This document shows, in pieces, positions 39,580-44,470 of a stretch of DNA of 50,460 nt. The position numbers and the translations under genes are program-made. A model generated the notes under the pieces. It was not told where the DNA came from, made no database searches, and saw nothing but the letters and a program-made list of their open reading frames with translations. The stretch spans positions 1 through 50,460 of the forward strand of contig CASGBA010000014.1 of NCBI GenBank assembly GCA_949299755.1, written 5' to 3'. Each line of letters opens with the position of its first letter. Position 1 is the first letter of the stretch. The DNA is from an uncultured Treponema sp. (GTDB lineage Bacteria; Spirochaetota; Spirochaetia; Treponematales; Treponemataceae).

Positions 39580-40628
39580 CTCCCTGTCCCCTTCCGTCTT
39601 CCGGCCCGAATGGCAGAGACTGGCGTACGGAAAATCCAGGAAAGGTACAGTCATCCTTCCCTTGCCGGATTCCGCCGGCCTTTGCGTCCCTTATTGCCGC
39701 CGCCGAAAATTCCGGGGATGCCGGGGCAGCTGATGCCCTTAAAAGGCAGGTTTGTCCTTCCCCCGGGGAAGGTTTAATCACCGGCAATGAAAGGTCTGAC
39801 CCCTTGGGGGAAGCATCCCACTGTGTGTTCCCGCGCCTTGTCCATCAGTATAAAAACCGGGTTCTCCTTCTTTCCACAGGGCGCTGCATAGGCTATTGCA
39901 GATATTGTTTCCGCAGGAGTTTCGGGGCCGGAAATTACGGCTTCATTTCCGATGAGGAGACGGAGCAGGTTTGCGGGTATATCGCCGGGAATCCTGAAAT
40001 CGATGAAATCCTTGTTTCCGGAGGAGATCCGATGTCAGCGCCTTTTAGGAAATTGGAAGCTCTTTTTTCAAAAATAAGGGGTGCCAGACCGTCCCTTCTG
40101 ATACGGTTGTGTACCAGAGCCCCGGTTTTCGCCCCGGAAATTTTCACTCCGAAAAAGCTTAAAACCTTAAAATCTTTCCGTCCCCTTTGGATCATCCCTC
40201 ACATAAATCATCCGGAGGAACTGGGTAGTGCCCAGCGTAAATGTTTGTCCGCTTTCATTGACGCAGGTATTCCCGTCCAGTCCCAGACTGTTCTCTTGCA
40301 GGGGGTTAATGATGACAGTGGAATTCTTTGCCGGTTGTTCAAAGATCTGACATGTCTGGGGGTAAAGCCCGGGTATCTTTTCCAATGCGACCTGGCTCCT
40401 GGAACCTCATGTTTCCGTGTACCCTTGAAAAAGGGTTTATCCATATGGAAGGAGCTGCGTAAAGAGCTTTCAGGCCTTTCGCTTCCTTCTTTCGCTGTTG
40501 ATTTACCCGGTGGCGGAGGAAAATTCCCGCTGTCTGTGGCAGCGTTGGTGGAAAATATTGTTTCCTGTACCAATAATGAATTAATTATTCGCTGTGATGA
40601 TGGAAAAGTATACACTTATTTAATATAA
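39573..40628 (+). CDS. KamA/EpmB-family radical SAM aminomutase-like protein
   Basis: A 351-residue radical SAM enzyme. The [4Fe-4S] motif is GRCIGYCRYCFRR (CxxxCxxC), followed by ILVSGGDPMSAP, and the PLP lysine lies in VDLPGGGGKFPL, as in lysine 2,3-aminomutase. The length suits EpmB, which makes R-beta-lysine for elongation factor P, more than full KamA (over 400 residues with a zinc-binding tail). The N-terminal 70 residues are atypical. epmA and efp are not in the window, so the substrate is not settled. It overlaps the M20 gene by seven bases. An AT-rich spacer and the sigma factor gene follow. Confidence 0.8.
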   Translation: MLTPCPLPSSGPNGRDWRTENPGKVQSSFPCRIPPAFASLIAAAENSGDAGAADALKRQVCPSPGEGLITGNERSDPLGEASHCVFPRLVHQYKNRVLLLSTGRCIGYCRYCFRRSFGAGNYGFISDEETEQVCGYIAGNPEIDEILVSGGDPMSAPFRKLEALFSKIRGARPSLLIRLCTRAPVFAPEIFTPKKLKTLKSFRPLWIIPHINHPEELGSAQRKCLSAFIDAGIPVQSQTVLLQGVNDDSGILCRLFKDLTCLGVKPGYLFQCDLAPGTSCFRVPLKKGLSIWKELRKELSGLSLPSFAVDLPGGGGKFPLSVAALVENIVSCTNNELIIRCDDGKVYTYLI

Positions 40629-40697
40629 AATGTATAATAAATAATACAGAATGTAGTTTGTTTTTGTAGTCATATTTTAAGGATTTGTTAAATTTTC

Positions 40698-40764: not shown

Positions 40765-40781
40765 TTGGCACGTTTTTTGCT
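40765..40781 (+). promoter_or_regulatory. Sigma-54 (RpoN) promoter of the sigma factor gene
   Basis: TTGGCACG (40765-40772), four Ts, then TTGCT (40777-40781). The GG and GC pairs are exactly ten bases apart, a near-perfect match to the -24/-12 consensus TTGGCACG-N4-TTGCT. The predicted start of transcription is about 40792, two bases before the ATG. A weak -10-like TAATAA (40782-40787) overlaps but has no matching -35. Confidence 0.8.
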
Positions 40782-40793
40782 TAATAATATGTC

Positions 40794-41621
40794 ATGGAAT
40801 ATGATGACAGCTTGTTGAAAAAATATCTTGCAGAAATCCAGCGTTATCCCCTGCTTTCCTTCGAGGAAGAGATGGATCTTTCCAGGAAGATAAAGGACGG
40901 GGACAGGGCTGCCTTTGAAAAACTTGTTAATTCAAACCTCAGGCTTTCTGTTGCTATCGCAAAAAGATACGTGGCCTTTGATCTTCCTCTTATTGATTTA
41001 ATACAGGAAGGAAACATAGGACTTCTTACTGCCGCGGAAAGATATTCATTTTCATATAGACTTAGGTTTTCCACCTATGCCTGCTGGTGGATTCGGCAAG
41101 CCATAACCAGGGCTATTGCGAAAAAATCCCGTCTTGTAAGACTTCCTGGACGCAAGGAAACTTTGGCCAGAAAAATCCGTCAGGTACGGGATGAACTTTC
41201 TTCCAAGTCTTACGGGCTTCCCACCTTCAAAGATATTGCGGATGAGCTTGGAATGGACGAGAAAAAGGTTGCTGAAATCTATTCTGTTTCCGAGCCTGCT
41301 TTCAGTTTGGAGGCGGAATACGATACCGAGCGGGGCACCTCATTCAAGGATGTGCTTGCAGATAATTCCTTTAATCCGGAAGAGCAATTTTTGAATAAAT
41401 GCAGGAAATCCCAGGTTTTAAAAATGCTTAAATCCCTCAAAAAGAATGAGTCATTCATAGTGTTTGAGCGTTTCGGTTTTAACGAGGACAGGAAAAAACG
41501 CACCTTCTCTTATCTCGGTAAATGTCTGGGGGTTTCTGCGGAAACAGTCCGCCAGACTGAAATCAGGGCTTTGAAAAAACTCCGGGCCAGCAAGGAAGAT
41601 TTTTTCGCCGTTTCGCCTTAG
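40794..41621 (+). CDS. Group 2 sigma-70 family factor (RpoS-like)
   Basis: A 275-residue RNA polymerase sigma factor. Region 1.2 begins at once (DSLLKKYLAEIQRYPLLSFEEE), region 2 has NLRLSVAIAKRY, LIDLIQEGNIGLLTAAERY and the -10-binding FSTYACWWIRQAITRAI, region 3 runs through LPTFKDIADELGMDEKKV, and region 4 ends with SYLGKCLGVSAETVRQTEIRALKKLR. Region 1.1 is absent and the region 4 linker is short, so it is an alternative rather than the housekeeping factor. There is no Shine-Dalgarno; the message from the sigma-54 promoter would start about two bases before ATG 40794. It converges with a membrane PP2C phosphatase gene. Confidence 0.92.
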   Translation: MEYDDSLLKKYLAEIQRYPLLSFEEEMDLSRKIKDGDRAAFEKLVNSNLRLSVAIAKRYVAFDLPLIDLIQEGNIGLLTAAERYSFSYRLRFSTYACWWIRQAITRAIAKKSRLVRLPGRKETLARKIRQVRDELSSKSYGLPTFKDIADELGMDEKKVAEIYSVSEPAFSLEAEYDTERGTSFKDVLADNSFNPEEQFLNKCRKSQVLKMLKSLKKNESFIVFERFGFNEDRKKRTFSYLGKCLGVSAETVRQTEIRALKKLRASKEDFFAVSP

Positions 41622-41659: not shown

Positions 41660-44314
41660 TCAGTTCTTTTTTATTCCCAGGATTGTAAGGTCATCGTATT
41701 GGGGGTCTTCTTTAAGGTTTTCATAATATAAATATTCCTCATATTCTGGATGCGGGTAATTCAGAGAACAATATTCGTCATATTGTTCAAAGCATTTTTG
41801 CAGGAAAGCGTCTATTTTTCTGTCCGCCTGTACCCTGTAAAAACCAGGTGAAGTCGTATCCTTGTATATCCTGAAGATTTTTTCAATGGAAACAAGGGCA
41901 ATGACTGCGTCCTCCACAGTTCCGTCGCAGTTTGAAAAATCAAAGGTATATTCCGTGTTTTCTCCTTCCGGATTGTGACATTTTTTCAGTGTGAATTTTT
42001 CTTTTTTGAATACGGCTTCGATTATTTCTTTAACCCTGTCGTAGGTGAATTCCTCATTGTCCTGGCCTATCCTGTGGTTTCCGTGAAAATTTTCATCCGT
42101 GGAGTTTTTTTCCGAACACACCGTTTGTTTGAAATCAGGTGTGCGGAAAAATCTTTTTGCCTCTTCTATTCCATCAGTGTAAAGAAAGAGGACGTCTCCG
42201 GGAGCAAGGTGGAGTTTTTCAACTTTATATCCTCCCTTTGCATTTATTTCCGAAGTGGGGAAAACACCTGCTGCGGAAACTTCCTGAAGTTTATGGGTTT
42301 TAAGCTTTTTTTCTGAAGCATCGTAAATATGCACGATGTTGTCACCGGCATTGCAGAAATATACGTCACCTGATTCGGAATCAAAAAGACACATGGTGAA
42401 AGCGGCAAACCTGCCTTTGAATCCCTTGGATTCCACAAGATCATTTATCCTGGATACTGCGGGGGAAATGTCGTAACGGTTTTTTACAAAATCCCAATCT
42501 TTGAAAAAATCCAAAAATATTGTGGCTATTTCAACCATAATGAGGGCTGCTGGAACCCCTTTCCCGGCCACATCACATTTTATTATTGCATAATGCCTTT
42601 CATCCAGTTTTTTGTAGTCAAAATAATCCCCTGAAACCCCTTCGGCTCCTTCGTAGTATCCGAAAAAGTCGGCATTTCCGTCTGAATATTCTCCGCTGGT
42701 AAGTTTTCTGCCGTTTTCATTTGTTTCCAAGGGAATGAACATTTTTTGAGTTTCTTTTCCCACCGTGAGCTCTTTGGCGGCTAATGCCGCTGATACCAGG
42801 GCATTGGTCATTTCGTTCACTGTTTCCCCGAGGAGACCTATTTCATCCCTGGAACGCAGTTTAATGCTTTTACCCTCCAACAGGGACTTGTCTTCCGTAT
42901 CTCTTATCATTGCCACATGGGCCGCCAGGTGTCTTATGGGGGATATGATTATATAAGCCAGGAACAGGGAACCGGTCATACCTATAAGAAGCGCTACCAG
43001 GGCAGTGTAAGCTGTTATCATTATTACAGCCTTGTATTCCTGGGCCAGGGCTGTGAACATTTCCTTGGTGGAAATTTCAACGATAACGTTGCCGTGGACG
43101 TAGGAACTGCTTCCTGCCTGCCTGTAAAGTACCGGTTTGTAGAAAATGTAGTGGGTTATATCCGGAGAAAGATTTTCCGGATCAAAATGTGGATAGGACT
43201 CTGTGGCCGAAAAAGAAATGCGTTTCAACCTGGTGGTGAGTTCCTCTTCCAACTGCAATATGATATTTTGGATTTCATTCTTTCTGGTAATTGAATCACT
43301 GTCTGTTTTAAGAGAAAGGGATTCCGCTTCCTTGGATAGGCGGGAAATATTCACGGATATATTTGAAACCAAAAAAAATGCGTGCTTGTTTATGTAAGCA
43401 TTTTTCTCTTCAATCTGTTTTGAAGCTTCGAACACAAGTCTTGATACACCTGGTATATATTCCGGAGTGTCTATTTTATTGACTATATCGGGATCATTGC
43501 ATGCCCACACAAAATTTGTTCCTTCCTCACTGCCATCAATTGAAGGTCCCGTTATGACGGCGCTCAATGCTTCCGGCACAGAGGAGCTTTGCCCCGGAAG
43601 AAAACTTAATTCCAGTAAGTCATGTCCTGGAAGATAGGCCTTAGCTCCTGAAGCCAAGCTTTCCAAAAGCACATTCAACCTGATTTGGAGGGCATTTACC
43701 AGGGTTTTTTCCTGGATTTTTGTAAACCGTAACCCAAGGGGTATTGAAACTAAAATTACGACAGAGAAAACCAATATACCCGTGAAGAATACAAATTTGA
43801 ATCTTAGTCCTGCGCCTTTCTTTTTTAGAACACTGTGATGCTTTTTTTTTCTTGAAGGCATAGTATCTCCTGATATAAGAGCCCGCACATCCCGGTGAAT
43901 ACGGGCAGAATCTGCTATTACGGAAAACAATCCGTAAATTGAAACCGCAAAGGCACAGAGCAGAAAGGCAATTAGGCTGTAAATCACAACTTTTTCCGGA
44001 AATAGGGGGATCAATCCTTCTTTTTTTGGATTGACTGCCACATCCGGGTTTGAACCTATATTGAAGTTTCCCGATTTTAGAGTGCCGTGAATTTCCACGT
44101 TACTGTAATCGACTGTTGTGTTTTTCGCTTCCTTTCCGTTCTGCCGGTTTGCGGTAAAGCTGCCGGGGTTTTCCTCCATGGCATCGGTAAAGCCTTCTGA
44201 GGAAATTTGCGAACTTCCGCTTTTTAGTGTTTGTTCCCCCTTTTCTGAGACATAAAACGGATAGAAAAAAAATGATGCCGAAAGACAGAGCAGGGCAACA
44301 GCCTTTCTTATCAC
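41660..44314 (-). CDS. Membrane sensor PP2C/SpoIIE-type serine phosphatase with HAMP domain
   Basis: A protein of 884 residues from GTG 44314, which has GGAGG six bases upstream; an ATG at 44362 would put that site inside the gene. Order: signal or first helix (IRKAVALLCLSASFFFYPF), a linker, helix VVIYSLIAFLLCAFAVSIYGLF, a Lys-rich stretch, helix FVFFTGILVFSVVILVSIPL, an extracytoplasmic sensor of about 280 residues, helix ITAYTALVALLIGMTGSLFL, a HAMP domain (SPIRHLAAHV...RSRDEIGLLGETVNEMTNAL), then a SpoIIE/RsbU-type phosphatase with GVSGDYFDYKKL and IKCDVAGKGVPAALIM, and a C-terminal domain of about 150 residues. Such proteins dephosphorylate anti-anti-sigma factors. Its convergence with a sigma factor gene suggests partner switching. 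Confidence 0.85.
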   Translation of the reverse strand: MIRKAVALLCLSASFFFYPFYVSEKGEQTLKSGSSQISSEGFTDAMEENPGSFTANRQNGKEAKNTTVDYSNVEIHGTLKSGNFNIGSNPDVAVNPKKEGLIPLFPEKVVIYSLIAFLLCAFAVSIYGLFSVIADSARIHRDVRALISGDTMPSRKKKHHSVLKKKGAGLRFKFVFFTGILVFSVVILVSIPLGLRFTKIQEKTLVNALQIRLNVLLESLASGAKAYLPGHDLLELSFLPGQSSSVPEALSAVITGPSIDGSEEGTNFVWACNDPDIVNKIDTPEYIPGVSRLVFEASKQIEEKNAYINKHAFFLVSNISVNISRLSKEAESLSLKTDSDSITRKNEIQNIILQLEEELTTRLKRISFSATESYPHFDPENLSPDITHYIFYKPVLYRQAGSSSYVHGNVIVEISTKEMFTALAQEYKAVIMITAYTALVALLIGMTGSLFLAYIIISPIRHLAAHVAMIRDTEDKSLLEGKSIKLRSRDEIGLLGETVNEMTNALVSAALAAKELTVGKETQKMFIPLETNENGRKLTSGEYSDGNADFFGYYEGAEGVSGDYFDYKKLDERHYAIIKCDVAGKGVPAALIMVEIATIFLDFFKDWDFVKNRYDISPAVSRINDLVESKGFKGRFAAFTMCLFDSESGDVYFCNAGDNIVHIYDASEKKLKTHKLQEVSAAGVFPTSEINAKGGYKVEKLHLAPGDVLFLYTDGIEEAKRFFRTPDFKQTVCSEKNSTDENFHGNHRIGQDNEEFTYDRVKEIIEAVFKKEKFTLKKCHNPEGENTEYTFDFSNCDGTVEDAVIALVSIEKIFRIYKDTTSPGFYRVQADRKIDAFLQKCFEQYDEYCSLNYPHPEYEEYLYYENLKEDPQYDDLTILGIKKN

Positions 44315-44470
44315 AAAAAACCTCCGGTGGGGTTTTAAGAATTCACTGCATATAGGAACCATGGGAGGACTGTATGCCTGTAATATTCTTAATCTTTGCT
44401 GATATTATATACCGTTATCGTTTTAAATTAAATATAAATATACTTACTTTGAATTAATTTAGAGGAATAT

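Follow-up and report, generated by a model that had tools for sequence, protein, structure and literature searches.

The RpoN-RpoS cascade is central to the biology of Lyme disease. For Borrelia, the start of rpoS transcription has been mapped to a sigma-54 promoter, and no enhancer for the activator Rrp2 was found upstream of it (PMC1976401). Rrp2 is the only activator of this organism (PMC11109971), and its enhancer-less mode of activation is an oddity. Here, a stretch of treponemal DNA of 50,460 nucleotides (the window) raises the question whether a sigma factor gene outside Borrelia is placed under sigma-54 control in the same manner and, if so, which activator would open its promoter. Three features of the window are needed for an answer:

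40766-40781, forward strand: sigma-54 (-24/-12) promoter TGGCACG-N4-TTGCT, assigned from the sequence, its conservation in orthologues, shuffle and RpoD controls, and the joint change of promoter and RpoN box in genus g15
40791-40794, forward strand: predicted start of transcription, placed about 12 nt past the GC doublet and giving a leader of 0-3 nt, inferred from sigma-54 spacing
40794-41621, forward strand: group 2 sigma-70 factor of 275 aa, belonging to clade A and orthologous to RpoS of Borrelia, assigned from Pfam, a tree and the region 4.2 signature VSAETVRQ

The letters at 40766-40781, TGGCACGTTTTTTGCT, form a textbook -24/-12 sigma-54 element and meet the TGGCAC-N5-TTGC criterion for such promoters exactly. 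Including the preceding base, 40765-40781 reads TTGGCACGTTTTTTGCT, with the GG doublet at 40767-40768, the GC doublet at 40779-40780 and ten bases between them; the letters thus bear out the near-perfect promoter with this spacing that the original prediction had described. The element ends 12 nt before the ATG of the sigma factor gene at 40794. Transcription from it by sigma-54 (RpoN) remains an inference, as no expression data are available.

The open reading frame 40794-41621 contains the sigma-70 regions 1.2, 2, 3 and 4 according to Pfam and lacks a long N-terminal extension. It is therefore a group 2 factor, in agreement with its initial identification. Among the curated NCBIfam models listed for this protein none reached its cut-off, and the RpoS equivalog TIGR02394 scored 209.4 bits against a cut-off of 378.7, so that the criterion for a proteobacterial RpoS is not met. 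The protein shares the group 2 domain layout with proteobacterial RpoS but falls below the RpoS model cut-offs. Upstream, the neighboring gene ends at 40628 and encodes a radical SAM protein with a weak match to lysine 2,3-aminomutase. On the other side, a gene for a 900-aa HAMP/SpoIIE-type phosphatase (41660-44362, reverse strand) converges on the sigma factor gene.

In a tree of 70 rows, the window protein and the Borrelia-type RpoS proteins form one clade, clade A (support 99/96), apart from a second group 2 clade, clade B (98/83), and from RpoD (100/99). Further group 2 factors separate from these, nearly all of them without a sigma-54 promoter. Here, the genomes of family f7 were taken as Borreliaceae from gene position and the presence of a single activator. 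Members of clade A including Borrelia have the region 4.2 signature S-x-E-T-V-R-Q in common, and clade B and RpoD carry (T/S)-(K/R)-E-R. Since the corresponding positions in E. coli sigma-70 contact the -35 element, clade A probably reads a different or a weak -35 element. By its place in the tree and by this signature, the window protein is truly orthologous to the RpoS of Borrelia, and the reading of this locus as a cascade therefore rests on homology and not on layout alone. E. coli RpoS groups with RpoD/SigA rather than with clade A; a tree uniting it with clade A was, however, not rejected (p-AU 0.094).

The genes of clade B, referred to as sigma B in distinction from sigma A of clade A, likewise have a sigma-54 promoter; the copy of the window genome lies on G000:C6. 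One carrier of clade B (G021) is presumably T. pallidum, and its sigma B promoter, TGGCATGATATTTGCT, is intact. A single origin of sigma-54 control for both clades was considered, and a tree constrained to one clade of all sigma-54-controlled rows was rejected (p-AU 0.0006). This suggests that sigma-54 control has been gained more than once or lost repeatedly.

How far can the promoter string itself be trusted? Within the window, TGGCACGNNNNTTGC has one exact match, and TGGCACNNNNNTTGCW has only two in the 2.35-Mb genome, the second of which sits inside a long reading frame. Allowing up to one mismatch, no genome-wide excess was observed (49 sites vs. 47 for the reversed pattern), and string counts were consequently not taken as evidence. 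Only three sites within one mismatch of TGGCACNNNNNTTGCW were found to be non-coding and followed by a clear gene start. One precedes the sigma factor gene of the window, one that of the second sigma factor, and the third an hsp20 gene.

The evidence for the promoter comes from its position and its conservation, not from the string alone. In 30 of 30 orthologues, from five families of the order, a sigma-54-type site (GG-N10-GC) lies close to the start codon; the doublets stay, and the spacer bases vary freely. Absence of this conservation would have spoken against the original prediction. With scoring weights set by us from the known consensus, a score of 14.4 was reached by about 0.1-0.2% of dinucleotide shuffles of the same upstream regions, compared to an observed median of about 15, and the highest score upstream of RpoD genes in 11 genomes was 12.9. 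A scan of genome contigs with the family alignment returned mostly RpoD/SigA proteins from other phyla, and the orthologues were therefore drawn from other genomes. Outside the order, clade A and clade B genes of other families in the class, and of some additional families in the phylum, are likewise preceded by sigma-54 sites, which several other group 2 lineages lack. As far as sequences alone can tell, a sigma-54 promoter on this sigma factor gene is a class-wide architecture.

A further line of evidence is provided by genus g15, called T. denticola-like here because we take one of its genomes to be T. denticola. Nine promoters of sigma A and sigma B genes were examined from this genus (L230, L231, L268-L274), and in every one of them TAGCA replaces TGGCA. 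The RpoN box reads AVRTVNKYR in both g15 genomes that were read (L286, L287) and ARRTVAKYR or ARRTVNKYR in 14 other treponemal RpoN proteins, which places the substitution specific for g15 at the first arginine. It is this box that contacts the -24 region, and alanine mutants of R455 or R456 lose -24 binding (PMC7175178). This co-change, although a single evolutionary event, is independent evidence, at the level of predicted sites and proteins, that sigma-54 reads these promoters.

The machinery required for such a cascade is present. The window genome carries one rpoN gene, whose absence would have refuted the prediction; it encodes all three sigma-54 domains (activator-interacting, core-binding and DNA-binding) and an intact box, ARRTVAKYR. 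Within the order, rpoN was detected in 46 of 46 high-quality genomes. Together with the common clade with Borrelia-type RpoS and the conserved GG/GC doublets, this supports the Borrelia-like RpoN-RpoS layout that had been proposed, the cascade itself remaining inferred. The proposed search for an enhancer-binding protein yielded two proteins with strong sigma-54 activator domains. One is a response-regulator/AAA+/Fis protein of the Rrp2-type (G000:C6:97681-99039), which adjoins a sensor kinase gene and is 55% identical to the Borrelia-type protein. The other is a GAF/AAA+/Fis protein encoded outside the window (G000:C3:194167-195678).

The Rrp2-type activator was found in 25 of 25 genomes tested. 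One of these, from family f10, has only a clade B sigma factor and a single strong activator, which is of the Rrp2-type. By elimination, the Rrp2-type activator was assigned to sigma B, an assignment that is inferred. In one Borrelia-type Rrp2 gene (L348, G215:C1:810030-811379), the aligned frame contains one TAA, and the open frame is given as 452 aa.

The GAF activator, on the other hand, follows sigma A. In the 46 high-quality genomes of the order, 40 have both, six have neither (G013, G014, G021, G024, G031, and G039) and none is discordant; in all 40 genomes with sigma A, the activator is a full-length orthologue. A prediction of this co-occurrence, put down in advance of reading the results, was then tested out of sample on 19 further genomes of the family, and 18 agreed (14 with both, four with neither). 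The discordant one, G217, is the sole genome of the family with a GAF activator but no sigma A, for which an assembly gap is possible. In the rest of the class, seven genomes have both and 11 neither, and four Borrelia-type genomes as well as G126 have sigma A without the GAF activator. Going by genus codes, the absences are spread over at least five places (g12, g13, g20, part of g4, and g24). Here, genomes were grouped by taxonomy codes and not by a species tree, and since they are related, the counts do not represent independent events. Regulators other than the GAF activator could also have been lost together with sigma A. Nevertheless, the activator most likely used at the window promoter is the GAF-domain activator and not the Rrp2 orthologue, although binding data are lacking.

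A candidate for a binding site at enhancer distance lies upstream of the promoter:

40631-40648, no strand: candidate upstream activating sequence (enhancer), TGTATAATAAATAATACA, which matches the TGTAT-N8-ATACA dyad perfectly, assigned from a palindrome search, shuffles and the congener G002

The dyad closely follows the stop codon of the upstream gene. It was discovered when the regions upstream of clade A promoters were searched for palindromes without bias; GTAT-N8-ATAC occurred in 15 of 29 of them (0.3 expected). When presence was defined as TGTAT-N8-ATACA at nine of ten positions or better, 33 of 51 clade A upstream regions contained the dyad, compared to about one in shuffles. This holds within the order (26/40; shuffles 0.8) as well as outside of it (7/11; 0.2). 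The inner eight bases are A-rich, and the congener G002 retains nine of the ten positions. The dyad was absent from Borrelia (0/4) and from the deep families of clade A (0/8). In clade B, it was not above chance (2/33; 0.5 in shuffles), and no dyad stood out when the palindrome search was used to find an enhancer for this clade. The dyad at 40631-40648 is probably the enhancer site of the GAF activator, its binding being inferred without data.

Several observations count against this reading, namely the discordant genomes G217 and G126, the failure to find an enhancer for clade B, and the 18 of 51 clade A genes without a dyad at nine of ten positions. In addition, the GAF activator contains GAFTDA instead of GAFTGA. 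This holds for nearly all of 30 orthologues (L355-L384), and most Rrp2-type proteins have GAFTGA. For NorR, the G266D exchange gives GAFTDA, keeps sigma-54 activation and bypasses the repression by the GAF domain (PMC2941729), so that GAFTDA does not exclude activity. The spirochaete activator has the same domain order as the NorR-type GAF-AAA+-Fis proteins, and its motif equals that of the variant, orthology being untested. However, GAFTDA is a selected escape mutation in NorR and a near-invariant natural state here. By analogy, this suggests that the GAF domain of the spirochaete activator acts differently from that of NorR.

Combining these data, the following relay is proposed. The sigma-54 RNA polymerase would sit at 40766-40781. 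The GAF-AAA+-Fis activator would bind to the dyad at 40631-40648, loop over and open the promoter via ATP hydrolysis. The transcript would encode the group 2 sigma factor of the Borrelia RpoS type, which in turn may transcribe its own regulon. In parallel, sigma B would be switched on through a separate sigma-54 promoter, with the Rrp2-type regulator as the most likely activator. Borrelia would represent a reduced version, in which sigma A (RpoS) and Rrp2 have been kept and sigma B, the GAF activator and the dyad have been lost. We consider this relay as a whole likely.

Three other readings have to be weighed against this relay. In the first of these, sigma-54 drives the gene, but activation comes from the Rrp2-type NtrC regulator, which would act from solution as it does in Borrelia, and the dyad belongs to an unrelated regulator. 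Such a regulator is available, given the orthologue in every genome tested and its identity to the Borrelia protein, and Borrelia Rrp2 functions without an enhancer (PMC1976401). However, Rrp2-type genes are retained in genomes without sigma A, whereas the GAF activator disappears with sigma A. Furthermore, the dyad lies at enhancer distance, and its absence coincides exactly with that of the GAF activator (in Borrelia and the deep clade A families). We therefore regard action of Rrp2 at this promoter as unlikely, without dismissing it.

More doubtful still is a main transcription by sigma-70 from an upstream promoter, with the sigma-54 site being minor or condition-specific. A sigma-70-like pair, TATACA-18-TATAAT, is present at 40609-40638, and a longer sigma-70 transcript of rpoS is known from Borrelia (PMC11109971). 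Nevertheless, the AT-rich sequence here contains pairs of this kind at background frequency (three found, 1.9 expected), and conservation concentrates on the sigma-54 site and the dyad. That the motif matches merely by chance, the non-coding DNA being AT-rich, or that it is bound by some other protein, could draw on the near matches being no commoner than the reversed control pattern. It is hardly credible in view of the conservation of the site around variable spacers in all orthologues, the shuffle and RpoD controls and the co-variation with the RpoN box.

The proposed relay resembles the Rrp2-RpoN-RpoS cascade of B. burgdorferi in the orthologous group 2 sigma factor, the nearby sigma-54 promoter, rpoN and the orthologous Rrp2-type activator. 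In contrast to that cascade, the treponeme has one more sigma factor driven by sigma-54, as well as a GAF activator and an enhancer-like dyad, none of which is present in Borrelia-type genomes; its predicted sigma A leader is only about 2 nt long. The absence of dyad and GAF activator from Borrelia fits an enhancer-less Rrp2 and suggests a rewiring. Accepting the broadest form of the hypothesis would mean that sigma-54 largely serves to switch on sigma A (by the GAF activator with GAFTDA and the dyad) and sigma B (by the Rrp2-type activator) in an ancient two-armed relay of spirochaetes, that the Borrelia route is a secondary rewiring which followed when one activator and one sigma factor were lost, that RpoN box and promoters have changed together in T. 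denticola-like species and that the sigma A message is leaderless in the focal genus. This combination we believe only slightly more than we doubt it.

In the open-access literature, to which the search was limited, no reports of sigma-54 control of treponemal sigma factors were found. New are the sigma-54 promoter of clade B, the dyad of clade A, the co-occurrence of the GAF activator with sigma A and the TAG/AVRT co-change in g15. Judging by its predicted distribution, the Borrelia relay appears to be an ancient and general one. If it is ancestral and two-armed, the oddity in Borrelia would be explicable as a loss. Treponemes, including the hard-to-study T. pallidum, gain a predicted circuit for the control of alternative sigma factors, which is testable in the cultivable T. 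denticola, and the co-change of RpoN box and promoter represents a natural experiment on sigma-54 specificity.

The leader differs between genera. In the window (40781-40794) and in the congener G002 (L041), whose predicted leader is equally short (1-2 nt), no Shine-Dalgarno sequence fits into the leader. The simplest reading is that sigma A is translated from a leaderless sigma-54 transcript in the focal genus. Since the start is inferred from spacing, a shift by 1-2 nt or an extra upstream promoter would alter this reading. In other genera, leaders are up to about 70 nt long, most with a GGAGG-type site, and the window genome itself has such sites at its hsp20 gene and at the gene for sigma B. 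The TGTAT dyad was not found at the hsp20 promoter. Downstream of its near-perfect sigma-54 site (G000:C2:125855-125870, reverse strand, L010), this gene for a small heat-shock protein has a leader of 85 nt and a strong Shine-Dalgarno sequence.
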